Origin: Dechloromonas hankyongensis
Lineage (GTDB): Bacteria > Pseudomonadota > Gammaproteobacteria > Burkholderiales > Rhodocyclaceae
DNA length: 64,000 bases
NCBI RefSeq assembly: GCF_022012295.1
Contig: NZ_JAKLTN010000002.1
Location: 682,001 to 746,000, forward strand
Reading direction: 5' to 3'
Positions 7,056-54,487 of the stretch are shown piece by piece. How positions within the stretch are numbered: the stretch's first letter is position 1; every line of letters begins with the position of its first letter. The notes below the pieces were generated by a model. That model searched no databases. It had not been told where the DNA came from and worked only from the letters and a program-made list of their open reading frames with translations. The translations under genes and the position numbers were made by a program.

Positions 7056-9079
<2,024 letters not shown>

Positions 9080-23693: not shown

Positions 23694-24644
23694 TTGAAGC
23701 ACGTTCTCGTCGTCAATTATTCGCAAACCGGCCAGCTTTCCGACATCGCTGCCCAACTCATCGGTCCGCTGCGCGATGCCGGCCATCAGGTGCATCTGGA
23801 AACACTGGTTCCGGCCAAGCCTTACCCGTTTCCATGGCCGATTGTCGATTTTGTCGACGCCATGCCCGAATGCGTGCAACTCGATGCACCGCCGCTCAAA
23901 CCGCTGACGATTCCTGCCGAAACCGACTTCGATCTGGTCATCCTGTGCTACCAGGTCTGGTTTCTGTCGCCGGCCCTGCCGATGACCGCCTTCCTGCACA
24001 GCGAGACGGGAAAACACCTGATCCGCGACAAGCCGGTCGTAACCCTGGTCTCCTGCCGCAACATGTGGCTGTCGGCCCAGGAAACCATGCAGAAATTGAT
24101 CGCCCAGGCCGGCGGCAAGCTGTGCGACCACCTGGCCTTTACCGATCGCGGTCATCCGCTGGCCACCTTCATCACGACCCCGCGCTGGGTGCTGACTGGC
24201 AAGCGCGACCGCTTTTTCGGCATGCCACCAGCCGGCGTAGCACCGGAGGAAATCCGCGGCGCCAGCCGTTTCGGCCGCGCCCTGGCTGACGCCTTGGACC
24301 GGGATGCCGAAAGATCAGGCCAGCCCATGCTCGCCGGCTTGCGCGCCGTTACCGTCAATCCCCGGCTGGCGATCAGCGAACGCGCAGGCCGACGGGCCTT
24401 CGGCATCTGGTCGCGCCTGATCCGCTGCTTTGGCAAACGCGGCAGCTGGCAGCGCCGTCCGGCCCTGCTGGTGTTCTCCATTTATCTGATTGTGATGGTT
24501 TTGACGGTCGTTCCAACAAGCCTATTGTTACAATGGTTACTTTCCCCGCTGCTGAAATCGCGCCTGGAGGGGCTGCGCGCTCAGCTGGAACTGCCGAGCG
24601 GGTCCCAGGAATTCAATCTAGAAAAATATGACCAGTCGCGATAG
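23694..24644 (+). CDS. DarA-like flavodoxin-fold protein (dialkylresorcinol condensing enzyme family)
   Basis: A 316-residue protein beginning [20 protein letters not shown], the phosphate-loop pattern of the flavodoxin fold, with a later membrane segment near the C-terminus (about residues 260-290, [20 protein letters not shown]). Proteins of this type are annotated as dialkylresorcinol condensing enzyme DarA, which with DarB joins and cyclises beta-keto acyl units. I favour the TTG at 23694 because it starts the fold directly and lies just after a -10-like box; an in-frame ATG at 23640 would add 18 residues. The next gene starts inside its last 17 bases. The function here is inferred from family and neighbours. 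Confidence 0.7.
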
Positions 24645-25794
24645 TGCCTACATCACCGGCACATCTTCCTTTCTGCCCAATGCGCCGGTAGCCAACGACG
24701 ATATCGAACAGGTGCTCGGCATGATCGGCGGCAAGCCGTCGCGTGCCCGACGCATCGTGCTGCGCAACAACGGCATCCGGACGCGCCACTACGCCATCGA
24801 CCCGACGAGCGGCGTGGCCACCCACACCAACGCGCAACTCACCGCCGAGGCCGTGCGCGGCCTGGCCGACGAGCATTTCTCGCCGTCGACGATGGATTGC
24901 CTGGTCACCGGCACCTCCCGCCCCGACCAGCTGATGCCCAACCACGGCGTCATGGTGCATGGCGAACTGGCCACCCCGCCCTGCGAAGTGGTGTCGACTG
25001 CCGGTATCTGTGTGTCCGGCATCACCGCGCTCAAGTACGCCTGGATGGCCGTGCTCTCGGGCCAGGCACGCAATGCCGTAGCTACCGGCTCCGAACTCGC
25101 CTCGTTGGGCTTGCACGCGCGCAACTTCGAAGCCGAATCGGCGCACCGCGTCGCCCAGCTGGAAACCAACCCGGAAATCGCCTTCGAAAAGGACTTCCTG
25201 CGCTGGATGCTCTCCGATGGCGCCGGTGCCTTCCTGCTCCAGCCGCAGCCGCGTTCCACTGGGCTTTCGCTGCGTATCGACTGGATCGACATCCTGTCGC
25301 AGGCCGATTCCATGGAAGCCTGCATGTACGCCGGGGCCGAAAAGCTGGCCGACGGCACGCTGAAAGGCTGGCAACAGTATTCGCCGGAAGACTGGAACAG
25401 CCGCTCGATCTTCACGGTCAAGCAGGATGTTCGGCTACTCAACGAAGCGGTCGCCTACCAGACCATCGGCAAGTCGCTCGAACAGGCCAAGACCCAGCGC
25501 CACCTCTCGGCCGAGGCCATCGACTGGTTCCTGCCACACATGTCCTCCGAGTATTTCCGCCAGCCGATGGCCGACTGCATGGCCGCGTCTGGTGTCAGCA
25601 TCCCGCAGGAACGCTGGTTCACCAACCTGCACAGCAAGGGCAATACCGGCTCGGCGTCGATCTACATCATGGTCGATGAACTGCTGAAAAGCGGCCGCCT
25701 GGAAAACGGCGACACCCTGCTCTGCTTCGTTCCGGAAAGCGGTCGCTTCACCGGTTCGCTGATGCACCTGACGGCTGTCGACCATGCTGGATAG
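24628..25794 (+). CDS. Beta-ketoacyl-ACP synthase III family enzyme (DarB-like)
   Basis: Thiolase-fold condensing enzyme of 388 residues. The KAS III triad is complete: Cys128 in STAGICVSG, His304 in [10 protein letters not shown] and Asn339 in [10 protein letters not shown] true housekeeping FabH is usually near 320 residues and sits with plsX and fabD; this longer form in a cluster with a DarA-like gene fits the DarB group, which extends or couples acyl chains. Start [20 protein letters not shown] overlaps the upstream gene by 17 bases and its stop overlaps the next gene by 11 bases. Confidence 0.85.
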
Positions 25795-26179
25795 CGAAGT
25801 CCCGCAGGAAGGCAACAGCACGCTGGGCGGCCACCGCAAGGCGATGTACGCGCGCGGCGCCGACGGCAAGCTGCATATCGTCCAGTCGGCAGGCTGGGAG
25901 GTTGAGGAAATCGTCACCAAGCAGGCCGTCAACGACCTGCTGCGCCTGACCGAAGACGCCCGCCAGCGCGTGCTGGCCGGTCAGACCTCGCCGCTCGAAT
26001 ACCACATGTATCGGGTGCGTATGGACGTGCCGCTGCTGGCGCAAGCCAGCGGCATCTGGCAATGGCGCATCCGCCGTCATTTCCGGCCGGCTGTCTTCGC
26101 CGGCCTGTCTGCTGCGCTACTGGCCACCTACGCCGACGCCATGGGCATCAGCGTCGAACAACTGAAAAAGGCCGACTGA
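25784..26179 (+). CDS. Uncharacterised protein in the DarAB-type cluster
   Basis: I do not recognise a family. The 131-residue product starts [20 protein letters not shown], is mixed alpha/beta by composition, and has one hydrophobic stretch (about residues 101-118, [17 protein letters not shown]) that may be a membrane-associated helix. Two conserved-looking segments are [17 protein letters not shown] and [20 protein letters not shown]. The strong overlaps on both sides (11 bases upstream, one base TGATG downstream) show it is a translated member of the operon, so it probably takes part in the same pathway. Confidence 0.75.
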
Positions 26180-27168
26180 TGGACTTCCAGCACAGCCAGG
26201 CTTCCCACTGCGAAAGCGGCGTCATGTCGGCGATGCTGCGCCATCACGGGCTACCGCTCTCGGAGCCGATGACTTTCGGCCTGTCCTCGGCGCTTTCCTT
26301 CGCCTACCTGCCGATCATCAAGATCAACGGCCTGCCGCTGGTCGCCTACCGGATGCCGCCCAAGGCCATCATCAAGGGCCTGCAGAAGCCGCTCGGCCTT
26401 AAGATGCGCTTCGAGACCTTCGGCAGCCAGACCGCCGGCGTCGCCCGCCTGAACGAACTGCTCGACCAGGGCAAGCTGGTCGGCCTGCAGACCTCGGTCT
26501 TCTGGCTGCCCTACCTGCCGGAAGACCTGCGTTTCCACTTCAACGCCCACAACGTGCTGGCCTTCGGCCGCGAAGCCTCCGGCGACTATCTGCTGTCCGA
26601 CCCGGTGGCCGAAACGACCGTCACCTGCCCGGCAGCCGACCTGCAACGCGCCCGTTTCGCCAAGGGCGCGCTGGCACCAAAGGGCCTGCTCTACTACCCA
26701 ATCGGCACGCCGCAGACGCCCGACTGGCAGAAGGTGCTGCCGGCCGCCATCAAGAAGACGACGCGCATCATGCTCGATGCCCCGTTGCCGATCATCGGCG
26801 TGCGCGGCATCCGCTGGCTGGCCAAGGCCATTGAAAAACTCGATGCCGGCAACGGTGCCGCCCATAGCAAGCTGTTCATCGGCCAGGTGGTGCGCATGCA
26901 GGAGGAAATCGGCACCGGCGGAGGCGGCTTCCGCTTCATCTACGCCAGTTTCCTGCAGGAGGCGGCCGATCTGCTCAATCGCCCGGCACTGGGCGAACTG
27001 GCCGAGCAGTTGATCGACATCGGCGACGAATGGCGGGAATTCGCGCTGGCCACGGCGCGCATGATCCGCGACCGCGACCCGCTGCAACCGCCGAAGCTGG
27101 CCGCCAAGCTGCGCGCCATCGCCGACCGCGAGCAGGCCTTTTTCCGCGACTTGCGCAGCGCCGCCTGA
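26179..27168 (+). CDS. BtrH N-terminal domain protein (thiol acyltransferase/peptidase fold)
   Basis: A 329-residue protein whose first 140 residues match the BtrH_N pattern: HCESGVMSAMLRHHGLPLSE, then FGLSSALSFAY. BtrH of butirosin synthesis moves an acyl group from a carrier protein to an amine. A papain/C39-like triad is suggested by Cys11, His124 (NAHNVLAFG) and Asp141 (LLSDPV). The C-terminal helical half (about residues 180-329) corresponds to the DUF4872-type region of such proteins. Start and stop overlap neighbours by one base each (TGATG). An ACP is encoded downstream, so transfer from that ACP is a reasonable inference. Confidence 0.75.
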   Translation: MDFQHSQASHCESGVMSAMLRHHGLPLSEPMTFGLSSALSFAYLPIIKINGLPLVAYRMPPKAIIKGLQKPLGLKMRFETFGSQTAGVARLNELLDQGKLVGLQTSVFWLPYLPEDLRFHFNAHNVLAFGREASGDYLLSDPVAETTVTCPAADLQRARFAKGALAPKGLLYYPIGTPQTPDWQKVLPAAIKKTTRIMLDAPLPIIGVRGIRWLAKAIEKLDAGNGAAHSKLFIGQVVRMQEEIGTGGGGFRFIYASFLQEAADLLNRPALGELAEQLIDIGDEWREFALATARMIRDRDPLQPPKLAAKLRAIADREQAFFRDLRSAA

Positions 27169-28079
27169 TGCTGCATATCGATGACGTTTCGTTTCGCTAC
27201 CGCGGTGCCGAAACGGCGGCGCTCGACGGCATCGCCCTAGACATCCCGGCCGGTGGCGTCTACGGCCTGCTCGGCCCGAACGGCGCCGGCAAGACGACGC
27301 TGATCTCCATCCTGGCCGGCCTGCAATCGGCCAGCAGCGGGCAGATCACGCTCAACGGCCGCCCCCTGGCCGCAGCCCGGGCCGCCGACCCGCGGGCCAT
27401 CGCGCTGGTGCCGCAGGATTACGCCTTCTATCCGATGCTCACCGTCACCGAAAACCTGCGCTTCTTCGGCGGTGTGCTCGGACTGAGCAAAGCAGAGCTG
27501 CGAACCCAGATCGATGCAGCCGTCGCCTTCGCCCGCCTCGAACAGGTGGTCGGCAAACCGGCCGAACAATTGTCCGGCGGCCTGCGCCGACGGCTGAACC
27601 TGGCCATCGGCCTACTCGGCCGGCCGCAACTGCTGCTCCTCGACGAGCCAACCGTCGGCGTCGATCCGCAATCCCGCCACTTCCTGCTCGATTCCATCGC
27701 CGGCCTGCCGGCCACCGGCACCACCGTCATCTACACCAGTCACTACATGGAAGAGGTCGAAGCCATCTGCGAACGCGTCGCCATCGTCGACCACGGCAAG
27801 GTGCTGGCCGAAGGCGCACTGGAAGCGCTGCTGCGCTGCGACGAATCGGTCGTCGAACTGGAATTGAATGCCGAACTGCCGCCTGACCTGGCCAGCCGCC
27901 ATGAAGCCGTCGGTGAAGGGGCGATGAAATACCGGCTGAAGCTCACGTCGGCCGCCGATCTGCCGCGCCTGCTCGACAATCTGGCCACCGCCGGCTGCGC
28001 CGTGCAGCAACTGAAAGTCGGCCGCGAAAACCTCGAACACCTCTTCATGCGCCTGACCAAGCGCTCGCTAAGGGACTGA
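27168..28079 (+). CDS. ABC transporter ATP-binding protein (ABC-2 type exporter)
   Basis: 303 residues with a complete ABC ATPase: Walker A LLGPNGAGKTT (residues 36-46), signature LSGGLRRRL, Walker B LLLLDEPTVGVD, and switch His in YTSHYMEE. The C-terminal extension of about 80 residues is typical of the CcmA/DrrA-like group that powers export of lipids and polyketides. Start overlaps the BtrH-like stop by one base; the permease gene follows after 3 bases. Confidence 0.93.
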   Translation: MLHIDDVSFRYRGAETAALDGIALDIPAGGVYGLLGPNGAGKTTLISILAGLQSASSGQITLNGRPLAAARAADPRAIALVPQDYAFYPMLTVTENLRFFGGVLGLSKAELRTQIDAAVAFARLEQVVGKPAEQLSGGLRRRLNLAIGLLGRPQLLLLDEPTVGVDPQSRHFLLDSIAGLPATGTTVIYTSHYMEEVEAICERVAIVDHGKVLAEGALEALLRCDESVVELELNAELPPDLASRHEAVGEGAMKYRLKLTSAADLPRLLDNLATAGCAVQQLKVGRENLEHLFMRLTKRSLRD

Positions 28080-28082
28080 GCC

Positions 28083-29297
28083 ATGAGCCGACTGAGCGCA
28101 CTGTGGCAAAAGGAAACCCTGGCCCTGCTCCGCGATCGGCACGGCCTGGCTGCCCTATTCGTCATGCCGATCATCTTCATCCTGGTCATGACCATGGCGC
28201 TGCACGACGCCTTCATGCCGGGGGCGGCCATCGACGTCGGCTACGCTATCGTCGATCTCGACGGCAGCCCGCATTCGCAGTCGCTGATCCAGCGCCTGAA
28301 CAAGGCCGGCAGTTTCCGGCACGTGGCCAATGTCGCCAATCCCGACGACGCTCGGCAGGCCATCCGCGACGGCCGCTATGCACTGGTCCTGATGCTGCCC
28401 AAGGGCTTCGGCGAGCGCCTGCTCGCCCCGGCTGGCGCCGACGGCCAGCCGACCGAGCCGCTCAGCCTGTTCGTCGATCCGACCCTGAACCCGGCGCTGC
28501 AACTGGCCTTCCGCACCCAGACCAATGCCGCGCTCGGCACCTTGCGCGCCGATGAACTGACGCGCAAGGCCGGCAAGCTGTTCGGCCTGCCGATGGCGGC
28601 CAATGCTCCCGACCGCGAATGGCCGGACGAGATCGTCAGCGTCGCCGTGCAGAACGACCGCAGCATACGCCCGCCCTCGTCCGTGCAGCAGAATGTCCCG
28701 GCCTGGCTGGTCTTCGCCATGTTCTTCGTGATCATCCCGATTTCCGCCATCCTGATCATCGAGCGCCAGCAGGGCACGCTGCAGCGTCTGGCCGCCATCG
28801 GCCTGCCGTTCCGCCTGGTGCTGCTCGGCAAGCTGCTGCCCTTCTTCATCGTCAACCAGGTCCAGTCCGTGCTGATGGTCGGTGTCGGCATGTTCATCGT
28901 GCCGATCTTTGGCGGCGAAGCGCTGGTCATGCCGCAGGGCATCGGCCTGCTCCACTGGTGGCTGGTTTCGATGGCGGTCAGCCTGGCGGCCGTCGCCTAT
29001 GCGCTGCTCGTCGCCAGTCTGGCCAAGACGACCCAGCAGGCGACCATCATCGGCGGCGTCGGCAACATTTTGATGGGTGCCGTCGGCGGCATCATGGTGC
29101 CCAAGTTCATGATGCCAGCCGCCATGCAGACGCTGGCCGAATTCTCCCCCATGGCCTGGGGCCTGCAGGGCTTTCACACGGTCATGCTGCGCCATGGCGG
29201 GTTCGCCGCCATCCTGCCCGCCCTCCTCCAACTGCTTGCCTTCGCCGCCGCCGCCCTGGCCGCCGCCGTCTGGCTCAACCACCGCCAATCCGCATGA
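28083..29297 (+). CDS. ABC-2 type transporter permease
   Basis: A 404-residue inner-membrane protein with the ABC-2 (YhhJ/DrrB-like) layout: one N-terminal membrane helix (about residues 23-40), a large extracytoplasmic domain (about 45-210), then five or so C-terminal helices starting VPAWLVFAMFFVIIPISAILI. The motif IIERQQGTLQRLAAIGLPF is typical of the family. It forms the exporter with the preceding ATPase. The ACP start overlaps its stop (ATGA). Confidence 0.92.
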   Translation: MSRLSALWQKETLALLRDRHGLAALFVMPIIFILVMTMALHDAFMPGAAIDVGYAIVDLDGSPHSQSLIQRLNKAGSFRHVANVANPDDARQAIRDGRYALVLMLPKGFGERLLAPAGADGQPTEPLSLFVDPTLNPALQLAFRTQTNAALGTLRADELTRKAGKLFGLPMAANAPDREWPDEIVSVAVQNDRSIRPPSSVQQNVPAWLVFAMFFVIIPISAILIIERQQGTLQRLAAIGLPFRLVLLGKLLPFFIVNQVQSVLMVGVGMFIVPIFGGEALVMPQGIGLLHWWLVSMAVSLAAVAYALLVASLAKTTQQATIIGGVGNILMGAVGGIMVPKFMMPAAMQTLAEFSPMAWGLQGFHTVMLRHGGFAAILPALLQLLAFAAAALAAAVWLNHRQSA

Positions 29298-29563
29298 GTG
29301 CCGAACTCCGCCTTGCCCTAAAAGCCCTGATCGTCGAAGCCTGCGACAAGGATTGCGACCCGGCCAGCATCACCGACGACGAAGTGCTGTTCGGCCCGGA
29401 GGCCCCGCTGCAGCTCGATTCCCTCGATGCCCTGCAGGTCTCGATGGCGATCAAGAAGCAATACGGCCTGCGCCTGCCGGACAGCAAGGAAACCCGGCGC
29501 ATCCTGTCGAACGTCGCCAATCTGGCCGACCACCTGGAAGGCTGGCTGGCCAGCCGGGGCTGA
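29294..29563 (+). CDS. Acyl carrier protein
   Basis: An 89-residue ACP with Ser43 in PLQLDSLDALQV as the phosphopantetheine attachment site, and the flanking helix pattern of the family. It is not the housekeeping AcpP, which has the DSLDTVEL context and lies between fabG and fabF. It is the private carrier of this cluster. The start overlaps the permease stop (ATGA), and the ketosynthase starts 8 bases after its stop. Confidence 0.9.
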   Translation: MSAELRLALKALIVEACDKDCDPASITDDEVLFGPEAPLQLDSLDALQVSMAIKKQYGLRLPDSKETRRILSNVANLADHLEGWLASRG

Positions 29564-29571
29564 GTCCGGAC

Positions 29572-30651
29572 ATGTCGCGCCCCGTCCATATCGTCGCCAG
29601 CGGCCTGCTCTGCGCCCGCGGCGACTCGCCGGCCGCCGTCCGCGACGCTTTGTGGATGGGCGAATGCAGTGCCGGCCAGCACACTCTGGGCGAACGGCGC
29701 TTTCCCTATTACGCCCTGCCGGTGGAAGAGCCCGACTGGTCCTTGCGCGCTGAACGCGCGGTGCGCCAGGTCAGCGCACAACTCGGGCCATACGCCCCGG
29801 CCACGCCGCTGTTCGTCGCCTCGTCGTCCTTCCAGATCGGCCTCTTCGAACAGCAAGGAGCGCCGTTCGACATGCCCGTCGGCAGCGCCTCGTTCAGCCG
29901 CCAGATCGCCGACTGGATGGCCCTGAAGGGCCCACGTGCCAGCTTCTCGAATGCCTGCGTCTCCGGCTTTTCGGCCATCGATGCGGCCAGTACGCTGATC
30001 GCCGCCGGGTTGATCGACGAGGCCATCGTCGTCGGCATCGAACTGGCCAACGACAGTACGCTGGCCGGCTTTGGCGCCATGGAACTGCTTTCCCGCTCGC
30101 TGTGCCGCCCCTTCGACGCCCGCCGCGACGGCCTTGTGCTGGGCGAGGCCGTCGCCGCCATCAAGCTGTCCGCCTCCCCTGGGCCGTGGACAATCGGCGG
30201 ACTGGCCACCGGTCTGGATGCCTACTCGACCACCGGCCCTGACCCGGACGGTGGGCCGATTGCCGGCGTGATGCGCGCTTGCCTGCATGCTGCCAACGCC
30301 ACCCCGGCCGACGTCGACCTGATCAAACTGCAGGCCGCTGGCTCCCCGGGCAGCGATCTGGCCGAAGCCAATGCCCTGCGCCAGGTTTTCGGCGCCAGCA
30401 TGCCGCCCCTGCTCTCCTTGAAGCCGGCCCTCGGCCACACGCTGGGGGCCAGCGGCATCGCCGAACTGGCCGCCCTGCTTGCCGGCCTCGACGCCGGACA
30501 AATTCCGGCCACCGCCAACTACCGCGACAGCGATGCCGAAATCGGACTCGCTCCGGTGACCGTTCGCCGCCAGGCCACCGTCCGTCGCGCCCTGCTCAAC
30601 CTGATCGGTTTCGGCGGCGGCCTGGCCAGCCTGGTCGTGGAGCGCAGTTGA
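29572..30651 (+). CDS. Beta-ketoacyl synthase family protein with altered active site
   Basis: FabB/FabF-type thiolase-fold protein of 359 residues, shorter than the usual 410. The nucleophile Cys129 is present in FSNACVSGFSA, and Lys284 and His289 are present in SLKPALGHTLGASG. The first catalytic His, which in FabF lies in NAHGTSTP, aligns without gaps to Gln254 in KLQAAGSPGSD. The enzyme may therefore load an acyl chain but decarboxylate malonyl-ACP poorly, or act by a different mechanism. It is followed with a one-base overlap by a smaller ketosynthase-like gene, a possible chain-length-factor partner. Confidence 0.85.
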   Translation: MSRPVHIVASGLLCARGDSPAAVRDALWMGECSAGQHTLGERRFPYYALPVEEPDWSLRAERAVRQVSAQLGPYAPATPLFVASSSFQIGLFEQQGAPFDMPVGSASFSRQIADWMALKGPRASFSNACVSGFSAIDAASTLIAAGLIDEAIVVGIELANDSTLAGFGAMELLSRSLCRPFDARRDGLVLGEAVAAIKLSASPGPWTIGGLATGLDAYSTTGPDPDGGPIAGVMRACLHAANATPADVDLIKLQAAGSPGSDLAEANALRQVFGASMPPLLSLKPALGHTLGASGIAELAALLAGLDAGQIPATANYRDSDAEIGLAPVTVRRQATVRRALLNLIGFGGGLASLVVERS

Positions 30652-31325
30652 TGGCTTTCCTCAACGCCCTCGTCACCCAGGAATTCGCGCCGGATGCCCT
30701 CGCGGCCGAAGTCCGGACGGCAGTCGGCAAACCGCTACGCCGTGCCGCCGCCCTGACCCAGCTCGCCTTGATCGGTGCCTGTGCCTGCCTGACCACCGAA
30801 CAGCGCCGGCTACCGACCATCCTGCTCTGGCAATCGACCAGCGGCCCGCGCCAGGAAACCCTCGCACTGCTCGATGAGGTCTGCCTCGGCGGCGGCGAAC
30901 CGATGCCCTACGACTTCCTGGCCACCCAACCGGCGCTCGCCGCCGCGCAGATCCAGCCCTTCCTGCCCGGCCTGCAGTCGGCCATGCACCTCCCGCTGGA
31001 TAGCGCGGACTCGGCCAACTGGAGCCTGCTGCTCGCCCTGGCCGGCCGATGGCTGGATCAGGGACGCTGCGCCAAGGTACTGTGCGCCCAGCTCGACCAC
31101 TGGAGCGATGCGGCTTCCGGGCAATGGCTGGCACTCGGCACGCTGCCGCTTGAAAACACGCTGGCTCGCTTCCAGATAGGCGAAGTAGCCGGCACCGCCA
31201 GCCAGCCCGACACACCTGATATTCCTAGCCGGCTGAGTGAATGGCTGACTGCCGGCGAAACGCCCGGCTTTTCCCTGCGTTCCGCCACCAACCCGCGACT
31301 GGCGGTAGAATTCGCCCGACTTTAA
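30651..31325 (+). CDS. Putative ketosynthase-like partner (chain-length-factor-like)
   Basis: A 224-residue protein starting MAFLNALVTQEFAPDALAAE. It has no complete active site. The order of segments LPTILLWQSTSGPRQETLALL, then GEPMPYDFLATQPALAAAQI, resembles the short N-terminal ketosynthase fragments (Ketoacyl-synt_2 type) found in aryl-polyene clusters, which lack the catalytic residues. The assignment is tentative. Its start overlaps the ketosynthase stop by one base, and it is the last gene of the operon; the next gene begins 18 bases later but is a different kind of gene. Confidence 0.55.
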   Translation: MAFLNALVTQEFAPDALAAEVRTAVGKPLRRAAALTQLALIGACACLTTEQRRLPTILLWQSTSGPRQETLALLDEVCLGGGEPMPYDFLATQPALAAAQIQPFLPGLQSAMHLPLDSADSANWSLLLALAGRWLDQGRCAKVLCAQLDHWSDAASGQWLALGTLPLENTLARFQIGEVAGTASQPDTPDIPSRLSEWLTAGETPGFSLRSATNPRLAVEFARL

Positions 31326-31343: not shown

Positions 31344-32201
31344 ATGTCCGAGTTTGCATTTGACGTTTCCATCGAAGAGTTCGAAGCCAAAGTCCTGATC
31401 CCGGCCGAGACCGTGCCGGTCGTCGTCGATTTCTGGGCGCCGTGGTGCGAGCCGTGCAAGGTCCTGAAGCCGCTGCTGGAAAAGCTGGCCGAGGAGTACA
31501 AGGGCCGCTTCATCCTGGCCAAGGTCAATTCCGACGAAAACCCGGAACTGGCGCAGCATTTCGGCGTGCGCAGCATTCCGTCGGTCAAGGTGCTGTTCCA
31601 GGGCCAGCTGGTCGATGAATTCAACGGCGCCCTGCCGGAAAAACAAATCCGCGAATTCCTCGACCGCATTGCCCTGCCGGCCGGGCCGGAACAGGTCAAC
31701 CTGCGCGAGCAGGCCGCTGCCCTGGTCGCCGAGGGCAAGCTGGAAGAAGCGCTCGCCGCGCTGGTCCAAGCCAGCCAGGCCAACCCGCAGGACCAGGCCA
31801 TCCAGCTCGACGCCGTCGATGTGCTGATGCAACTCGGCCGCAACGACGAAGCCAAGCAACTGCTGGCCGGCGAATACGCCAACGAGCCGGATCGCGCCAA
31901 TGCCCTGCGCGCCCGCCTGGCGCTGCTCGACGGCGCTGCCGACACCGCACCGCTCGAAGCCAAGCTGGAAGCCAATCCGGACGACCACGCCACCCGCCTC
32001 GAACTGTCCAAGGCTTACGCCGCGCAAAGCCGCTTCCGCGAGGCGCTCGACGCCGCGCTCGAAGTGGTTCGCCGCGACCGTTTCTTCAACGAGGGCGCCG
32101 GCCGCAAGGCCGTTCTGGCCCTGTTCGAAGCGCTATCTGGCGAGCAATACGACGACCTCGTCCGCGAATTCCGTCGCAAGATGTCCGCAGCCTTGAACTA
32201 A
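31344..32201 (+). CDS. cnoX: Thioredoxin-domain co-chaperone, CnoX/YbbN family
   Basis: A 285-residue protein: thioredoxin fold (about residues 1-110) with the active site WAPWCEPCK, then tetratricopeptide-like helical repeats to the C-terminus. CnoX-type proteins hold damaged proteins and pass them to GroEL/DnaK. The CXXC pair here is complete, unlike in E. coli YbbN (SXXC), so redox activity is possible. It lies 18 bases after the biosynthetic operon and may be read through from it. Confidence 0.9.
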   Translation: MSEFAFDVSIEEFEAKVLIPAETVPVVVDFWAPWCEPCKVLKPLLEKLAEEYKGRFILAKVNSDENPELAQHFGVRSIPSVKVLFQGQLVDEFNGALPEKQIREFLDRIALPAGPEQVNLREQAAALVAEGKLEEALAALVQASQANPQDQAIQLDAVDVLMQLGRNDEAKQLLAGEYANEPDRANALRARLALLDGAADTAPLEAKLEANPDDHATRLELSKAYAAQSRFREALDAALEVVRRDRFFNEGAGRKAVLALFEALSGEQYDDLVREFRRKMSAALN

Positions 32202-45819: not shown

Positions 45820-46614
45820 TTAATCCATTTTTTTAAGATATTCTTTGGTAAATATCTTGTCCGGAAGGTCACGTAATTTCATTTCGCTATACTCAAGCAC
45901 AGATTTTTCACCCGGACGCAGTGCATCTTCCATAACCAACCTTGTAGGACGCACCCGCCCTGCTAAAGTCTGAAAATTTTCATAGCTGCACTTTTTCATC
46001 AGGCGATTGGACAGCGAATAAAATTCGGCCTTCAAAGGCCATCCGGATTTTTCGTTCACCCAGTACATGACGCGCTGATATGTCACGCTACGATCGATTG
46101 CATTCAGCTCAAGTACCAAGTACTTTTCATTTCCGACAGTTTCGGTTCTTAGGACTTTCGGATTGTAGTCACCGGCAAAATTCGCCCGCGCCAGATCGCC
46201 ATTCGCCACCTGCCCCGTCAGGCGCTGCGCCAGAGAAATTCTGACAGGCTGGGAAACCTCAGGCATAAACACCCAAAGGTCTCGTCCCTTCATTAAAATT
46301 ATTTGCCCCCGCTCGGATGCGGGTTCGGTAATCATAACCACCGCGTTGTCATTTCCCTTGGACAGTACGCGATATTTTCGAACATCAGAATCTTTGTCCG
46401 GACGCGTAGAGTTTATTACAACGTCAACTTGAAAACCTTCAGCCGGGAACCGAACCTTGTCTGCCTTTTCAACTATACTGCGACCGAGAGCTTCGTCCGC
46501 GTTAGTTTGGGTATTTTCCTCAGCAAACGCAGCTGCCCCAAGGACTGAAAAACAGATATACGCTGCCCAAGCAAAGACGTTTTTGCCCTTCCGAATACAG
46601 CCAGTAATCATCAT
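45820..46614 (-). CDS. Outer-membrane lipoprotein-sorting protein (LolA-like)
   Basis: A 264-residue exported protein with a signal-peptide-like N-terminus (hydrophobic segment about residues 14-31, ending AFA) and the DUF4292/lipoprotein-sorting pattern: ILMKGRDLWVFMPEVSQPVR, LAQRLTGQVANGDLAR, EKSGWPLKAEFYSLSNRLMKKC. Such periplasmic proteins work with MacB/FtsX-type ABC transporters. It is divergent from an ABC ATPase gene (52-base gap), and two FtsX permeases lie 4-7 kb away. Base composition is more AT-rich than to the left. Confidence 0.8.
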   Translation of the reverse strand: MMITGCIRKGKNVFAWAAYICFSVLGAAAFAEENTQTNADEALGRSIVEKADKVRFPAEGFQVDVVINSTRPDKDSDVRKYRVLSKGNDNAVVMITEPASERGQIILMKGRDLWVFMPEVSQPVRISLAQRLTGQVANGDLARANFAGDYNPKVLRTETVGNEKYLVLELNAIDRSVTYQRVMYWVNEKSGWPLKAEFYSLSNRLMKKCSYENFQTLAGRVRPTRLVMEDALRPGEKSVLEYSEMKLRDLPDKIFTKEYLKKMD

Positions 46615-46665
46615 GAGATTTCTCCCGCACTATTTCGATACTATCGCAGACGGCGGCAAACAATC

Positions 46666-47415
46666 ATGAGCGTCGTCCGCATCGAACACGTCTATAAAGA
46701 CTATCAGCTTGGCGAACAGACTGTCCAAGCATTACATGATATTACATGGTCAATTGATGCCGGAGTCTTCCTCGCTATATCCGGCCCTTCAGGAAGTGGC
46801 AAGACCACGTTGCTCAACCTGATCGGATGCATTGATAAACCAACGCGCGGCAAGATATTCATAAACGAAGATGATGTTTCGGAGAAGTCAGCTAACGAAC
46901 TAGCTGATTTGCGCGCACGATCAATCGGCTTTGTCTTTCAAACCTTCAATCTTCTCCCGGTTCTATCAGCTGCTGAAAACGTAGAATATCCTCTACTACG
47001 GCGTGCAGACATCTCCCCTGACGAACGAAAGGCACGCGTCAACTACTTCCTGGATATTGTAGGACTGGGAAAATTTGCAAACCACCGCCCAAACCAGTTG
47101 AGCGGCGGCCAAAGGCAACGCGTAGCCATTGCGCGGGCGCTGGCCATAAAGCCAAGTATCGTGCTCGCTGACGAGCCTACTGCCAATCTGGACAAAGCGA
47201 CCGGTCGCGAAATCCTCAGCCTAATGAAGCAGATAAACCGTCGACTGAAGACAACCTTCATATTTTCGACACACGACCAGAAGGTCATCGACCGCGCCGA
47301 CCGCCTTGTCCAGATGGAAGATGGTTACATCACTGCCTTTGGGGTACGCAACGAAACAGACAAAAGCTGGAATCTAGCTCGTGTTCGCACCCTGCCGGAA
47401 TCAGAAAACGAATAA
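46666..47415 (+). CDS. ABC transporter ATP-binding protein, LolD/MacB type
   Basis: 249 residues with Walker A SGPSGSGKTTLLNL, signature LSGGQRQRVAIARALA, Walker B VLADEPTANLD and switch His in FSTHDQK. The motif FVFQTFNLLPVLSAAENVEYP is typical of LolD/MacB ATPases, which partner FtsX-like permeases. The adjacent gene is not a permease but an outer-membrane protein; the permeases are on the other strand near 51-53.5 kb. The most likely partners are those two. Confidence 0.9.
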   Translation: MSVVRIEHVYKDYQLGEQTVQALHDITWSIDAGVFLAISGPSGSGKTTLLNLIGCIDKPTRGKIFINEDDVSEKSANELADLRARSIGFVFQTFNLLPVLSAAENVEYPLLRRADISPDERKARVNYFLDIVGLGKFANHRPNQLSGGQRQRVAIARALAIKPSIVLADEPTANLDKATGREILSLMKQINRRLKTTFIFSTHDQKVIDRADRLVQMEDGYITAFGVRNETDKSWNLARVRTLPESENE

Positions 47416-47455
47416 ACCCACCCACAAAAACAAGAACCCTGCGAATAGACATCAT

Positions 47456-48796
47456 ATGATCCCCCGCCTTACCACTATTGCAGCATGCTGCATTGCGCTT
47501 GGCGCCACAGCAGCAGAAGATGATCTACTAGGCCGCGATGCACTGTTCGGCGACGACATTCCAAAAGCAGAACGTACATCGCCACAACGCGGTTCAGGAA
47601 TCAAGGGCTTCATTCAATTCGAGGCAGCCCGCACAACTGCAGACCCGGATCACTGGTCGAAACTTCGCGCACGCACCGAACTAGGCAACTCAGGCAAACT
47701 GAATGACAGCCTCAAATGGAAATTGGGTGTCAGGCTTGACTATGACTTCGTTTATGGCATCAACGACTTCTACTCACCTGAGGTCGTCAGAAACCAGCGA
47801 CATAACGTAGACCTGCGTGAAAACTACGTCGACTACAGCACCGGCAATCTTGATTTTCGTATTGGCAAGCAACATGTCGTCTGGGGCGAAATGGTCGGGC
47901 TCTTCTTCGCAGACGTTGTTTCAGCCCGTGATATGCGTGAATTCATCCTGCCGGAATTCGACCAGATGCGAATTCCGCAGTGGGCAGTGCGCGCAGAATA
48001 TTTCGGAGATGACATCCACGCCGAACTGTTATGGGTTCCGGTCGCCAGCTACGACAATGTCGGCAAACCCGGCGCAGAGTTCTATCCTTATCAGCCCGTT
48101 CCGCCTGGCTTTAACACCCGCTATCTTGCAGAAATGCGCCCTGAGCGCGATGCAGACAACATGAATTATGGGCTGCGCCTATCGACCCTGAAGAACGGAT
48201 GGGATATCTCGGGTTTTTACTATAGAAGCAGCGATGTCGGACAGACCTTCTATCGGCAGTTCGAAGCACCTACCAACACTTTCGTATACCAAGCCAGACA
48301 TGACCGTATCCATCAAACAGGCGGCACGATCTCCAAGGACCTCGGCGATATCGTATTCAAGGCGGAAGGCGTATACACGTCAGGACGCAGTTTCACCACA
48401 TTGAATTTTGCCGATAGCGATGGCGTGGTCAGACAGAACACATTCGATTGGGCTGCAGGCCTGGACTTCACACTGCCAGCCGATACCCGATTGAATGCCC
48501 AAGTATTTCAACGCCAGTTCTTCAGCTACGACCCGAACAATGTCTCAGATAAGCGGGAGAACGGCTATAGCCTGCTGCTCAACAAGAAGTTTTTTAATGA
48601 CTGGGAGGCGCAAGCCCTGTTTATTTCCAGCCTCAACCGCACCGACTGGCTTTTCCGCCCACGTCTGACTTGGAACTTTCAGCGTAACTGGCGCGTACTT
48701 CTAGGTGCTGACATCTTCAATGGCCCCCCGCAAGGGATGTTCGGTCGTTACGACCAACAGGACCGAGTTTATTCGGAAGTACGTTACAGCTTCTAA
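47456..48796 (+). CDS. Outer-membrane beta-barrel protein, DUF1302/alginate-export-like
   Basis: A 446-residue exported protein: signal peptide (residues 1-19, ending ATAA), then a repeating beta-strand pattern of alternating hydrophobic and polar residues ending in the outer-membrane signal VRYSF. It resembles DUF1302-type barrels. The start at 47456 follows the ATPase stop by 40 bases and has an excellent signal-peptide start (MIPRLTTIAACCIALGATAA); the frame can be extended into the ATPase gene but not plausibly. Likely part of the same export system. Confidence 0.8.
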   Translation: MIPRLTTIAACCIALGATAAEDDLLGRDALFGDDIPKAERTSPQRGSGIKGFIQFEAARTTADPDHWSKLRARTELGNSGKLNDSLKWKLGVRLDYDFVYGINDFYSPEVVRNQRHNVDLRENYVDYSTGNLDFRIGKQHVVWGEMVGLFFADVVSARDMREFILPEFDQMRIPQWAVRAEYFGDDIHAELLWVPVASYDNVGKPGAEFYPYQPVPPGFNTRYLAEMRPERDADNMNYGLRLSTLKNGWDISGFYYRSSDVGQTFYRQFEAPTNTFVYQARHDRIHQTGGTISKDLGDIVFKAEGVYTSGRSFTTLNFADSDGVVRQNTFDWAAGLDFTLPADTRLNAQVFQRQFFSYDPNNVSDKRENGYSLLLNKKFFNDWEAQALFISSLNRTDWLFRPRLTWNFQRNWRVLLGADIFNGPPQGMFGRYDQQDRVYSEVRYSF

Positions 48797-48960
48797 TGGT
48801 GCGGCTTGGGGTTCGGTAACGTTACCTAATTAAAGCCACCAACAAAGCATCGCACGCCACCGCAAGCCATCCTAACCCAGGCGCACAGTCTCATTGAGCA
48901 CATTTTTAACCACTGATTTCTTTATTAAGAGATTTCAGCTCAGTTTGGCAGATTACAAAC

Positions 48961-48992
48961 AAAAAAGAGGGAGCATAACGCTCCCTCTTTTT
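48961..48992. terminator. Bidirectional terminator between the barrel gene and the PEP-CTERM gene
   Basis: GAGGGAGC pairs with GCTCCCTC around a five-base loop, with A-run and T-run on either side. It lies 25 bases from the PEP-CTERM stop and serves that minus-strand gene; it can also stop the plus-strand barrel transcript. The rest of 48797-49016 shows no gene. Confidence 0.85.
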
Positions 48993-49016
48993 AATTCAGC
49001 TCGCAGCTAAGCCCGT

Positions 49017-49895
49017 TTAGGCTTGCTTGGCGCGACGACGGCTAGAGAGCCCCAGACCCAGCAGAGCGCCCCCCATCAGGAGCAGCATCGACGGCTCAGG
49101 GATATCGAAGCGCAGGCTACCGTCATGGTTGGTGCTAACCTGATAGATCGTGTTGCCATTAGCATCGACACCTGCAACAGAGAACTGACTGAGGGTCACG
49201 TTGGTGTCTTGGCTGGCGACCCAAGTCACTTTGAGCGGTGACGGGTTGCAAGTAGCCAGCGCCTGGAAACCGGTAGCACCACCACAATTGATGCCATTGG
49301 CAGCATGAATGAGGTTATTGAAGCCCCCATCAACACCGGTAAAGTCGGGGATGCCGAATAGAACGGTACCGACGCCAGTCGCGCCACCGCCACCGATCAA
49401 CAGGTTCATGAAGTTATTGAAATTGCTGCCATCAGTGGTCAGCAGCATCTTGATCAGACCACCAGCCGCATACGACAGCAGAGGGATATCGCCATTGAGA
49501 CCACCGACCACGCCAAGCAGGTTTTCACCCCTGAAGCTGATCATCCAGTCATTTCCATAACCGTTGTTGGAGGCGGTACCAAAAGCTTGCCCTGGCGTAA
49601 AGCCAGTTGCAAAGTTATTGACTAGCTCATTGGTACCAAACAGGCCAATACTCGTCGAAACCAAGTCGCCCGCATCGATACCGTTACCATCAACGTCCGT
49701 AATAAAGGTCGTCGACTGATAGGTATAAAGAATCTCGTTCTTGATACCAGTACTCGTCGAGTTGACCTTCCCCGTCTGATTTAAGCCAGTGAAATTTGCA
49801 CCCACATCCAGATAAATCTGGGAAGCGGAAGCGGCTGTTGCAGCGCTCACTGCAAGAGCAGCACAAAGCGCCTTAAGTTTAAAAGTGTTTTTCAT
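49017..49895 (-). CDS. PEP-CTERM sorting-domain protein
   Basis: A 292-residue exported protein: signal peptide (residues 1-24, ending ASA), a Gly/Asn/Thr-rich beta-type body with few charges, and a C-terminal sorting signal with the IPEPS motif, a hydrophobic stretch LLLMGGALLGLGL and the basic end SSRRRAKQA. This is the classical PEP-CTERM tripartite signal recognised by exosortase, here presumably the XrtA encoded near the right edge. Start at 49895 has a good ribosome site (TGGAGAG). A sigma-54 promoter candidate lies about 68 bases upstream. Confidence 0.93.
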   Translation of the reverse strand: MKNTFKLKALCAALAVSAATAASASQIYLDVGANFTGLNQTGKVNSTSTGIKNEILYTYQSTTFITDVDGNGIDAGDLVSTSIGLFGTNELVNNFATGFTPGQAFGTASNNGYGNDWMISFRGENLLGVVGGLNGDIPLLSYAAGGLIKMLLTTDGSNFNNFMNLLIGGGGATGVGTVLFGIPDFTGVDGGFNNLIHAANGINCGGATGFQALATCNPSPLKVTWVASQDTNVTLSQFSVAGVDANGNTIYQVSTNHDGSLRFDIPEPSMLLLMGGALLGLGLSSRRRAKQA

Positions 49896-49962
49896 TTTGC
49901 TCTCCAGTAAGGACTGAATCCGTTTAAACGCCAGGCAAAACCATTTGCCACGCAAGAGCTTA

Positions 49963-49978
49963 AGCAGGCACCATGCCA
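49963..49978 (-). promoter_or_regulatory. Candidate sigma-54 (RpoN) promoter of the PEP-CTERM gene
   Basis: The minus strand reads TGGCATGGTGCCTGCT, matching TGGCACGnnnnTTGCW at all but two positions, both transitions, and keeping the essential GG-N10-GC spacing. It lies 68 bases before the ATG, giving a 5' leader of about 55-60 bases. In other betaproteobacteria PEP-CTERM genes are driven by RpoN with PrsK/PrsR; those regulator genes are not in this window. Confidence 0.65.
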
Positions 49979-50086
49979 GAATGGCAAGCAACTGAAAAAC
50001 AAAGGAAATATTTTTTAACGCCTCGCCCCGTGTAAAGTTTTCCGACATTCCAAATGCAAATAAATAGTGCACTCTAGACGAACCCT

Positions 50087-50959
50087 CTAGGCATTCTTTC
50101 TCAGCAGACTGCGGATATATCGAAACATCAGTTGCTGGATTGGATTTTTGTTCCCGAACGGACGCCAAGTCTTGACCAGACGATTTTGATAGGCATCGAA
50201 ATGCAACCCCCTTGGCGCGTAGCGCACACCCCCTCTACCTAACAACACCTTCAAAGCAGCAGAACAGGCCACCCCCGCAGCCAGTTCAATGCCCATCGCG
50301 GTGGACGGCACCTTGCGTTTGAACAGATTGACTGATGTCCTATTAAGCAAATAGTGCCGCTGCAACATGGAGGGAGAAACACCGACGATGAATTTGAGGA
50401 TCTGATCCTCGAACTCATATCCTTCCAAAGCGAAATACTCTTCAAAACTCATACCGTCCGGACTAAAAACGAGCAAAGCGGTACCTAGCCCCATTGGAGC
50501 AGCGGTAATCGCCGGAATACCTTTCTCATGGCATCGCGCAAAAACCTTGCGACGAATGTCCAGCGAGAAGATATCCAAGCTATCCATATAGAGATCCACT
50601 CCATCAAGGAAATGATCGACGTTCTCGGTATTCAAACCGGTTGGCAACAGCCGAAGATCACAATCGGGATTGATACCCCGCACCTGCTCTGCCATGACAT
50701 CAAGTTTGGGCAGTCCAATAGTGGATGCCAGCGCCCCCGCCTGTCGATTCAGATTCGGCCAATCAAAAGTATCCAGATCGGTGATTGAAAATGCGCCTAT
50801 CCCTAGACGGGCAAGCGTCAACAAGTGACTCCCCCCCACCCCACCAAGGCCACCAACTGCTACACGGCAATTGCGAAGCCTACCCTGCTCATCATCGGTT
50901 ACCCATCCAATATTTCGCGAGAACGCCACATCGTACGAAAACCGAGAACTATCAGTCAT
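50087..50959 (-). CDS. ThiF/MoeB/HesA-type E1-like adenylyltransferase
   Basis: A 290-residue protein of the ubiquitin-activating superfamily. The ATP-binding GGLGGVGGSHLLTLAR (about residues 35-50), the Arg finger segment DTFDWPNLNRQ and the Asp-rich MDSLDIFSLDIRRK loop are present. No CxxC zinc-binding pairs, unlike MoeB, and no rhodanese domain. No ubiquitin-like partner is encoded nearby. Start has a strong AAGGGGG ribosome site. It lies between the PEP-CTERM gene and the FtsX permease operon on the same strand. The substrate is unknown. Confidence 0.85.
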   Translation of the reverse strand: MTDSSRFSYDVAFSRNIGWVTDDEQGRLRNCRVAVGGLGGVGGSHLLTLARLGIGAFSITDLDTFDWPNLNRQAGALASTIGLPKLDVMAEQVRGINPDCDLRLLPTGLNTENVDHFLDGVDLYMDSLDIFSLDIRRKVFARCHEKGIPAITAAPMGLGTALLVFSPDGMSFEEYFALEGYEFEDQILKFIVGVSPSMLQRHYLLNRTSVNLFKRKVPSTAMGIELAAGVACSAALKVLLGRGGVRYAPRGLHFDAYQNRLVKTWRPFGNKNPIQQLMFRYIRSLLRKNA

Positions 50960-51041
50960 GGAACCCCCTTGATTAATTGTTGGACAGTAACCCCTCCTGT
51001 CACTGATCTTCCGAACAGCGAACGGGGATAGCTATCGATTG

Positions 51042-52277
51042 TCAGAGCCCATGCCTTAACGCATCGACAATCGATAGCCTCGAAGCCCGGTGAGCTGGCA
51101 AGATAGACGCTAATACAGTAGCCAACCAACCGATCAGTCCAGCAAGCAAGACCGACGGAGGATCGACACGAATATAAGCCGTATAGCCGAGATTCGCGTT
51201 GGGAGGCGGAGGCATGGGAATACCGATTGCCGAGATACCCCAAGCCGCAGAGACCCCTAACAACATACCAAGAATAGCTCCACACCCTCCCACCAGAACC
51301 CCTTCCGTCATGATCTGATTGAATATTGAGGATGGGCGCCCCCCAATTGCCATAACAGTTCCGAACTCTCGAGTTCGCTCAAATAGTGTCATGTTTATGG
51401 TATTGGCCACAGACAGGAGAACCATCATGAGAATAATCAGGCGGAGAACGCCGAATTGACGATCATAAAGATCGATTGTTTTTGAGTAAAAGTCCGACAG
51501 ATCGTGCCACAGCGTGACCTCGCTACCGTTGCCGCCAAGCTTTTTTCTAACTTTCTCGGCAACCAATCCACTCTCCGAAGTTTGATTCAGCACCATAACC
51601 AGCTTATGCACAGCCTCAGTAGCCATGAGTTCCCTAGCAGCCGGCAATGTAATCCTTACAGCACGAGCATCGAAATCTTTCGAAAAAGTCTGAAAAACGC
51701 CGACGATTTCGAAATCCAATGTATTGATCGCCCCTTCAGCCAGACTGACCACCAACGCGATACGATCACCTGGCTCAACATTGAGCGACTTGGCCACTCC
51801 CTGGCCGACAACCATGCCAAACTTATCTTTGTCACTTAAGGCACGCCCGCTGATGTAGCGCACATAAATTCCGGTTAATGCACTTTCGAAATCTGCCTCA
51901 ACGCCTTCTCCGATCACACCCAAGTCGCGCTTGCCGTTGTTCAGCGTCCCCGTGAAATTAATTCTGGACAACACAGAAGACACTCCAGGAAATTCCAGTA
52001 ATTGAGATCGAATTTTCTCCGGATTCTCGATCAAGTATTTGTCTGGAGAGCGCAGTCCGCCGTTTTGAAAGCCTTGACGAGTAACCTGGATATGCCCTGT
52101 CTGCCCATGGATGATGGCCTCTCCCAGCTGTATGAAGATATCCTGAACAAAACCGCCAACAATGATCAGGCCAGCAACCCCTAGCCCAATTGCCAACAAA
52201 TTCGCTATAGCTCTCGCTCGTTGTCGAAAGACGTTTCGCAGAGCAAAGAGCAGATTTTCAAGGAAGCGGGATTTCAT
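51042..52277 (-). CDS. FtsX-like ABC transporter permease (second of pair)
   Basis: A 411-residue inner-membrane permease of the MacB/LolCE type: membrane helix near residues 20-43, a large periplasmic domain, then three C-terminal helices beginning near residue 270 (LRLIILMMVLLSVANTINMTL). The motif ERTREFGTVMAIGG is the FtsX signature. It is paralogous to the adjacent permease; both carry ISAIGIPMPPPP-like loops. Start overlaps the upstream permease stop (ATGA). Expected partner is the LolD-type ATPase at 46666. Confidence 0.92.
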   Translation of the reverse strand: MKSRFLENLLFALRNVFRQRARAIANLLAIGLGVAGLIIVGGFVQDIFIQLGEAIIHGQTGHIQVTRQGFQNGGLRSPDKYLIENPEKIRSQLLEFPGVSSVLSRINFTGTLNNGKRDLGVIGEGVEADFESALTGIYVRYISGRALSDKDKFGMVVGQGVAKSLNVEPGDRIALVVSLAEGAINTLDFEIVGVFQTFSKDFDARAVRITLPAARELMATEAVHKLVMVLNQTSESGLVAEKVRKKLGGNGSEVTLWHDLSDFYSKTIDLYDRQFGVLRLIILMMVLLSVANTINMTLFERTREFGTVMAIGGRPSSIFNQIMTEGVLVGGCGAILGMLLGVSAAWGISAIGIPMPPPPNANLGYTAYIRVDPPSVLLAGLIGWLATVLASILPAHRASRLSIVDALRHGL

Positions 52278-53503
52278 TGGTTATACCGAAGCGCGTCAAC
52301 TATATTGAGACGGCTCGCCCGGAAGGCAGGCAGGATACTGGCAATCAGCGTCGTTATAACCGCCAACGTGACTGATTCGACGGCAATTTCCGGAGTGAAC
52401 AATACGGCGCCCGTAAAACCATGTGCCATACCCGGCGCAGGTGGCATAGGAATACCAATGGCCGAAATACCTTGTGCAGCCAGCCATCCGACCGAAATTC
52501 CGATCAAGCCCCCTAACAAGCCGATCAAGATCCCTTCAACAATGAAAAAGCGCATGACAACACTGCGCTTCTGCCCCAAAGCGAGTACGGTACCAATTTC
52601 TGTCGTCCGCTCCAGCACGCTCATGGTTTGGGTGTTCGAAATGGAAAGCACGATGATCAACCCAATAATGACCTTCACAACCTGAATCTGGCTGGTAAAA
52701 AGTGTGACGGTCTTATTGTAGAAATCAGCCAAGGCAGACCATGGGACCAACTGATATGCATTGGCCGGAAGGATCACCTTCAGTTGCTCGATTACCTTTT
52801 GCGTCAGCAGATGACTATCCAGCAGCATGACCCAAGCGGTCGCCCCTTCGACTCGCATCAAGGTTCGCGCCCGCTGAATCGGCAAGCGGAGAGCATGATC
52901 ATCAAACTCCTTTGACGTCGTATTGAAGACACCAACTACTTCAGTTTCAACAGCGCCTGCTCCACCTTGCTCCGTTGTCACCAAGAGAACGATTTTGTCC
53001 CCGACTTTAGCCCCCAGACTTTGAGCCAATCCCTCTCCTAGAATAACGGCTGCCTCATTGTCGTCTTTCAGATCCCTACCGTCATCGATATTGATGCGCG
53101 CACTGATAGGCCTCTCCCCCGCAGGAGAAACGCCTTCGCCAATGAAGGATACGGTGGCATCACCAAGGCTTGCCAAACCACTGAATGCCAACCTGGGGGT
53201 AACGCTAACAACTCCCTTTAGTCCAGCCAATTTGGGAAACAGCTCCCGTCCATCGCCAAGCAGAAACCGGTACGGGTCGGCTACCCCTTTTTCAAAATAA
53301 TCCGGCCTGACAATTTGCACATGGCCCAGTTGAGATCGGACTGTTGAATCCCGCATGTCAACAAAGATCCAAGCAATAAAACCACTGGCCAACGAGAAGG
53401 CCACGATCCCACTCGCCACAGTCAGTATCGAGACTGCAGTCCGTTGCCGATTGCGCGCCAAGTTCCGCCATGCAATCACGAGATCAGAAAAAAACTGCCT
53501 CAA
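52274..53503 (-). CDS. FtsX-like ABC transporter permease (first of pair)
   Basis: A 409-residue paralogue of the next permease: helix near residues 17-45, periplasmic domain, FtsX signature ERTTEIGTVLALGQ and three C-terminal helices. The TTG at 53503 is preferred because AGGAG stands five bases before it; a GTG at 53530 with no ribosome site would add nine residues. Its stop overlaps the second permease start. It is divergent from the export lipoprotein gene; the 294-base gap 53504-53797 holds no other gene. Confidence 0.9.
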   Translation of the reverse strand: MRQFFSDLVIAWRNLARNRQRTAVSILTVASGIVAFSLASGFIAWIFVDMRDSTVRSQLGHVQIVRPDYFEKGVADPYRFLLGDGRELFPKLAGLKGVVSVTPRLAFSGLASLGDATVSFIGEGVSPAGERPISARINIDDGRDLKDDNEAAVILGEGLAQSLGAKVGDKIVLLVTTEQGGAGAVETEVVGVFNTTSKEFDDHALRLPIQRARTLMRVEGATAWVMLLDSHLLTQKVIEQLKVILPANAYQLVPWSALADFYNKTVTLFTSQIQVVKVIIGLIIVLSISNTQTMSVLERTTEIGTVLALGQKRSVVMRFFIVEGILIGLLGGLIGISVGWLAAQGISAIGIPMPPAPGMAHGFTGAVLFTPEIAVESVTLAVITTLIASILPAFRASRLNIVDALRYNQ

Positions 53504-53797
53504 TTGCTCTCCTGTCTCTGCAAAGACCACATTTACCTAGCCTCTCAGTGGAGACCCCCGAACCATATCGACAATGGTATATCCGGCCGCACACTTTCAC
53601 CAGTTTGCTGATCAACGACGTTCCAAATTAAGTACTTTACGAGGAGAGATTCCTGCACCTTTCCTAACCCCATTGCGGGAAACCGAGGCATCGCGTGAAC
53701 TCTTTAACGCTACTTTCCCGATGTTTCCGTTATGATTATGCCGAATTGATTGAGTAGAGCAGGAACAGCCTGCGATCTGATTAAAAGGGGACTACCA

Positions 53798-54421: not shown

Positions 54422-54440
54422 TCAATCCTTGAACAACTCT

Positions 54441-54474: not shown

Positions 54475-54487
54475 CATGAGCTGATAG

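Follow-up and report, generated by a model that had tools for sequence, protein, structure and literature searches.

Nine open reading frames (ORFs) follow one another on the plus strand between positions 23694 and 31325 of a 64,000-nucleotide stretch of the Dechloromonas hankyongensis genome (contig NZ_JAKLTN010000002.1, positions 682,001 to 746,000; hereafter the window), each overlapping its neighbour or lying at most 8 bases from it. This layout, obtained from an ORF call on the window, agrees with a preliminary description made from the nucleotide sequence, which had also recognized the chemistry of DarA, DarB and an acyl carrier protein (ACP), a BtrH-like acyltransferase and an ATP-binding cassette (ABC) ATPase with its ABC-2 permease, all of them assignments that profile matches bear out, weakly so for DarA (Table 1). 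The genes are named here after the dialkylresorcinol (DAR) genes of Azoarcus sp. BH72. Three of the products (DarB, DarD-type and BtrH-like) are already covered by NCBIfam models. Against the stricter resorcinol_DarB exception model the DarB product scored 510.1 bits, under the cut-off of 550. The start of darA was set at a TTG codon because the consensus of its relatives (MKxVLVVxYSQTGQ) begins at the same residue. In DarC, residues Asp42, Ser43 and Leu44 are invariant in 31/31 sequences.

Table 1. Genes of the dar operon, with coordinates in the window, assignment and supporting match.
Gene	Position	Strand	Assignment	Evidence
darA	23694..24644	+	putative flavodoxin-like DAR aromatase	TTG start; precedes darB in 21/21 family loci
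darB	24628..25794	+	StlD/DarB ketosynthase (DAR cyclase)	NF005293, 616 bits (cut-off 450)
darD	25784..26179	+	DarD in Azoarcus naming; NCBIfam DarG family	NF053536, 174.7 bits (cut-off 70)
darE	26179..27168	+	DarE in Azoarcus naming; NCBIfam DarH, BtrH-type acyltransferase	NF053550, 480.6 bits (cut-off 300)
darF	27168..28079	+	ABC transporter ATPase	ABC_tran, 108.5 bits
darI	28083..29297	+	ABC-2 permease	ABC2_membrane_3, 127.5 bits
darC	29294..29563	+	acyl carrier protein	PP-binding, 22.8 bits (cut-off 20.8)
darJ	29572..30651	+	ketosynthase, Cys129-Gln254-His289	Ketoacyl-synt_C, 77.8 bits
darK	30651..31325	+	half-size ketosynthase-like protein	AF2 model and Foldseek; fusion with darJ in relatives

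The cluster had been called uncharacterised in the preliminary description, yet it is of an already described kind, one more instance of a pigment system that is both published and widespread. The same nine genes stand in the same order, A-B-D-E-F-I-C-J-K as compared by annotation and position, in the dar operon of Azoarcus sp. BH72 (azo0293-azo0283), whose gene table gives darA, darB, darD, darE (BtrH-like), darF (ABC ATPase), darG/H (PHD/PilT), darI (ABC permease), darC (ACP), darJ (ketosynthase) and darK, and labels DarB as DAR cyclase and DarA as DAR aromatase (PMC3949708, 2014). As that account describes it, mass spectra of Azoarcus led to arcuflavin, a DAR linked to a xanthomonadin-like polyene, probably as an ester, while mutants showed that two unlinked polyene loci are required for the pigment; both kinds of cluster were also reported from Dechloromonas aromatica, Variovorax paradoxus and Sideroxydans lithotrophicus (PMC3949708). 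Arcuflavin has since been counted among four described classes of aryl polyenes (PMC10165715). Judged from its sequence, the operon therefore most probably represents the DAR half of an arcuflavin-type pigment pathway, to which we give a probability of roughly 0.85, and it probably makes a resorcinol lipid that is joined to a yellow polyene chain from genes elsewhere in the genome. An unknown lipid or acyl-amine pathway was also considered and was set aside in view of the gene-for-gene match with the Azoarcus dar table (PMC3949708). The two operons differ in the PHD/PilT pair, which lies between darF and darI in BH72 and is absent from the window operon. Two short ORFs that by eye resemble a PIN-type toxin and a PHD-type antitoxin occupy the same place, as in BH72, in one relative (locus L048, positions 7092-7741, minus strand, genome G026), and another (L051, genome G086) carries about 5.5 kb of extra DNA there, so the gap between F and I may be a repeated insertion point.

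Xanthomonadin-like polyene genes lie elsewhere in the genome, as they do in BH72; in BH72 the polyene blocks are unlinked, whereas here the two blocks fall within about 26 kb of another contig than the operon (C1:412-438 kb). The single match to the LolA_3 family in this genome, at C1:417900, is surrounded by two ACPs, a FabF-like ketosynthase, an acyltransferase, an MMPL exporter, a polysaccharide deacetylase and a methyltransferase, together with an AMP ligase (best model 4-coumarate ligase, 114 bits, under that model's cut-off) and a FabA/ApeI-like protein (FabA 30.8 bits, over cut-off; ApeI-like 24.6, under the cut-off of 28.5). Beyond these, over no more than about 20 kb, come genes for a ketosynthase, a ketoreductase, a sodium/proton exchanger and a Trp_halogenase-type enzyme, and the same region encodes a XanB2-type chorismatase (PF21168, 134.2 bits). 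By annotation, and for the subset of arc genes that was looked for, these genes correspond to the arc genes of Azoarcus. A second dehydratase candidate in this region (149 amino acids) had no Pfam match, and a genome search for an ApeP-like dehydratase was uninformative since it matched neither the genome nor its controls. The preliminary description had concluded from the missing dehydratase, ketoreductase and ligase that the cluster did not fit the standard aryl-polyene type or the standard dar type, but this absence is true of the operon only, such genes being present at C1:412-438 kb. The same genes rule out a genome devoid of the polyene half.

A related known system is that of the flexirubins of Chitinophaga pinensis and Flavobacterium johnsoniae, in which a DAR made by DarA and DarB is likewise esterified to an aryl polyene (PMC3992019). 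That the operon is a flexirubin cluster proper is very improbable. Its DAR genes, the membership of DarD in the DarG family and the similarity of the C1 LolA to the LolA2_flexi model would all fit, but the flexirubin-specific models stay under their cut-offs in this genome (flexirubin_DarG 125 bits of 170; LolA2_flexi 56.3 of 125), and the XanB2-type chorismatase points to a hydroxybenzoate starter, whereas the Chitinophaga flexirubin starts from tyrosine and carries a tyrosine-derived head group (PMC3992019); no search aimed at a tyrosine ammonia-lyase was made.

Conservation of the operon was followed in a family sample of 199 genomes and a class sample of 369. All 21 family loci (L044-L064) keep the order A-B-D-E-F-I-C-J, the stretch of one of them (L051) ending inside J, and K was found by tblastn in 13 of them and fused to J in three more that were tblastn-negative (L057, L058, L061). 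Strong DarE occurs in 17 class genomes other than the window's own. Within the stretches covered, all nine genes are present in 10 of these (9 of the 12 loci L065-L076, and L124 among L121-L125), one locus (L121) has every dar gene except A, and the remaining six have A-B-D-E only, three of these close to a contig end; here ABDE and FICJK often form two blocks facing each other, and several of the loci include polyene genes. A further scan used two search patterns and returned at least 573 stretches encoding DarE relatives, so that the number of loci may be lower; the best 80 were named and are thus biased towards near relatives. In these 80, D and E were present in 80 each, B in 78, F and I in 74 each, A in 73, C in 69, J in 66 and K in 56, and the set A, B, D, E, F, I, C and J was complete in 63, many of the misses, but not all, being on short contigs. 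Hosts among the matches listed include Variovorax, Pseudomonas, Vibrio, Photobacterium, Sulfurimonas and Desulfocapsa, and the nearest named DarE relatives listed are from a Betaproteobacteria metagenome-assembled genome (96%) and an uncultured Azonexus (94%), by which the window's genome is probably Azonexus-like. The single pathway envisaged in the preliminary description thus holds: the neighbourhood is conserved, in an order that recurs in 21/21 family loci and so is not due to chance, and nothing placed DarA in an unrelated flavodoxin family, even if the evidence on this protein is weak.

With LolA_3 as a proxy for polyene clusters, the two halves of the pathway can be followed together. 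In the family sample DarE matched 29 genomes at an E-value of 0.001, of which 27 had strong DarE (E below 1e-50) once the weak matches in G131 and G081 were dropped; LolA_3 was found in 71/199 genomes and both markers in 26. LolA_3 therefore accompanies 26/27 strong-DarE genomes, against 45/172 genomes without strong DarE (Fisher p 1.3e-12), the exception being a genome that is 80% complete (G179). Tallied by genus, the figures are 11/11 against 18/57 (p 2.3e-5), and a congener (G147) has neither DarE nor LolA_3. In the class sample, 20 genomes matched DarE at an E-value of 0.001 and 18 remained after dropping the weak G336 and G211; all 18 also carry DarB, which occurs in 25 genomes (E 1e-30). 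LolA_3 exceeded its cut-off in 14/18 genomes with both DarB and DarE but in only 1/7 with DarB alone (p 0.007), and at an E-value of 0.001 it was matched in 15/18 and 2/7, respectively (p 0.017). When the dar profiles were run on the seven DarB-only loci (L114-L120), three of them gave A together with B; the other four gave B alone, apart from a weak 41-bit F match at the edge of one stretch. Three of these loci (L114, L115 and L116), with DarA and DarB and no matches to the other seven genes, are candidate producers of free resorcinols. The two dropped class loci (L077 in G336, L078 in G211) encode distant DarE relatives of 27-28% identity, and the stretches around them have neither DarA nor DarB nor DarD; ABC ATPase and permease-like matches occur in L077 as well.

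These distributions bear on whether the operon might instead make a free DAR lipid alone, which DarE, DarJ/DarK and the ABC pair would modify and export independently of any polyene. The presence of darA, darB, an ACP and an ABC pair in one operon, the location of the polyene genes on another contig and the report that the Azoarcus DAR proteins yield DAR in E. coli (PMC3949708) would all be compatible with such a product. In Pseudomonas chlororaphis the product is a free resorcinol, 2-hexyl-5-propylresorcinol (HPR). The HPR cluster shares darA, darB and darC with the window operon and, as the available part of its description has it, these are the sole biosynthetic genes, a darC mutant still making some HPR; they are followed by the AraC/XylS regulators darS and darR, and that part makes no mention for HPR of D, E, F, I, J or K, the six further genes of the window operon (PMC6403133). 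Together with the co-occurrence of DarE and LolA_3 and the DarB-only loci, this ties the additional genes to the hybrid pigment and not to DAR synthesis itself. Moreover, the operon adjoins or sits among polyene-gene matches in relatives (L056, L066, L070, L071, L076), at least one such match lies in 29 of the 80 named loci and at least two in 19, and free DAR is given as undetected in Azoarcus extracts (PMC3949708). Given also the LolA_3 marker in nearly all strong-DarE family genomes, a free lipid as the sole product appears improbable.

Several points nevertheless weigh against assigning the operon to an arcuflavin-type pathway. LolA_3 is a proxy, shared ancestry was corrected for by the genus tally only, 3/18 DarE-positive class genomes have no LolA_3 match with one more below the cut-off, and one DarE-negative class genome (G396) exceeds it. 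The likeness to BH72 is one of annotation and gene order, and the window DarA taken by itself matched no Pfam or NCBIfam family; a profile of 32 DarA members had a weak match in the PDB to a flavodoxin-like chain (2mwm, E 0.0021, 20.2 bits), and an NCBIfam flavodoxin model was matched by 3/32 members.

The products of the last two genes, darJ and darK, resemble a ketosynthase with its chain-length factor. DarJ keeps Cys129 and His289 in 67/67 sequences, while position 254, which we take to be the first catalytic histidine of Cys-His-His ketosynthases, is Gln in 29/67 (the window included) and His in 38/67, with three changes on a quick tree; in the unnamed loci plus the window (n=30) the counts are 12 Gln and 18 His, some of which may be polyene ketosynthases. 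The window DarJ does not have both catalytic histidines of a condensing ketosynthase, and from its sequence ordinary malonyl condensation is therefore doubtful in this lineage. DarK alone matched nothing in Pfam or NCBIfam. Its AF2 model (pLDDT 89.0, pTM 0.86) resembles ketosynthases in Foldseek (7f28_C, E 2.8e-9; ApeC, 6qsp_B, E 8.2e-8; TMq 0.57-0.58), a likeness that for 6qsp_B is clear by E-value and moderate by TM-score (TMq 0.58, rmsd 7.0). Homology to ketosynthases is drawn from this model together with matches of the DarK profile to ketosynthases in the PDB (best E 2.4e-5), the matches of relatives (n=38) to ketoacyl-synt in nine and to Ketoacyl-synt_2 in three, and weak matches of the profile within long DarJ proteins, in their ketosynthase region (best E 1.2e-6), and not from hhalign, which gave a match of only 19 columns between DarK and DarJ with a probability of 0.4 percent. 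As J and K also form one fused protein in 6/21 family loci (L047, L049, L050 and the three tblastn-negative loci above), they are very likely partners, and the model makes it likely that DarK is a chain-length-factor-like partner of DarJ. The closest parallel is the ApeO:ApeC ketosynthase/chain-length factor (6QSP), with DarJ as the ketosynthase and DarK modelled like a half-size ApeC; the differences are that DarJ of the window has Gln where the first catalytic His would stand and that the operon has no dehydratase or ketoreductase.

DarE consists of BtrH_N (152.6 bits, cut-off 29.7) and DUF4872 (190 bits) domains, and its Cys11, His124 and Asp141 are invariant in 80/80 sequences (79 named loci and the window) as well as in 36/36 in another count. 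The BtrH_N family is papain-like and related to C39, and its type member is described as an ACP:aminoglycoside acyltransferase (PMC10318531). The DarE model (pLDDT 92.7) was closest in Foldseek to AziU2-U3 (E 1.1e-11), followed by CtaG (E 3.0e-10) and CcbD (E 3.2e-9); PDB entries of CtaG include the variants C11A, H128A and D144N and a PHBA complex, the variants indicating a Cys-His-Asp set as in DarE, and CcbD has also been solved with a carrier domain. A sequence search of the PDB with DarE returned mainly designed coiled coils and apolipophorin, which we took as spurious. The conserved residues, the CtaG- and CcbD-like model and the BtrH_N family together make it likely that DarE carries out carrier-to-acceptor transfer. 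BtrH uses an amine as acceptor, and CtaG and CcbD also act on amines, whereas the acceptor of DarE would be the DAR phenol. The preliminary description had referred to the amine acceptor known for BtrH; the acyltransferase family stands, but an amine is not needed in a pigment class described as a probable ester of a phenol.

A tentative proposal is that DarE forms the ester of polyene-DAR pigments as a BtrH/CtaG-type enzyme acting on a phenol oxygen instead of an amine, aided by a DarJ/DarK pair that, having lost the first catalytic His (Gln254) in the window's lineage, may no longer elongate the chain and may hold it or hand it over. Two points count against it. AziU3/U2 forms aziridines and is not known as an acyltransferase, so that the fold alone is no proof of acyl transfer, and for flexirubin the authors proposed the ligase-like FlxW as the joining enzyme (PMC3992019). 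Both are equally arguments for a different joiner, be it DarJ/DarK, a ligase or an acyltransferase of the polyene side, with DarE acting elsewhere, for example on a membrane amine, as the amine acceptor of BtrH would suggest; Gln254 (29/67 sequences) could leave in DarJ an acyl-transfer rather than a condensing enzyme. The invariant Cys-His-Asp of DarE, its likeness to CtaG and to the carrier-bound CcbD, and LolA_3 in 14/18 class genomes with DarE against 1/7 with DarB only speak against a different joiner, which we likewise regard as possible at best. Our search of the open-access literature found no experimental test of a BtrH-like protein in polyene-DAR pigments, which is weak evidence of absence.

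By analogy with their homologues, DarA and DarB would join two chains derived from fatty acids into a 2,5-dialkylresorcinol, and DarC with the DarJ/DarK pair would handle or supply an ACP-bound chain. On the view that DarE is the ester former, the polyenoyl chain, presumably made by the arc-type genes on C1, would be taken off its carrier protein by DarE through Cys11 and passed to the DAR phenol oxygen. DarF and DarI may then move either the product or some intermediate through the inner membrane, in the direction of a LolA/MMPL path to the outer membrane, with DarD as a putative accessory of the pathway.

Immediately 3' of the operon, where the HPR cluster has its two regulators, the next ORF (31344-32201) is thioredoxin-like by eye. 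Further along the window, the region 46000-64000 has a G+C content of about 51%, against about 56-68% before it, and encodes Wzz/GNVR, an AAA ATPase, a DUF3473 polysaccharide deacetylase and a FemAB-like protein, like an exopolysaccharide locus. Two adjacent MacB/FtsX-type permeases lie on the minus strand at 51042-53530, with an ABC ATPase gene some kilobases off (46666-47415).

In summary, with one candidate enzyme whose catalytic residues are defined, the joining step of polyene-DAR pigments is now directly testable, and the ketosynthase pair with its lineage-specific active-site change offers a second handle on the joining chemistry.

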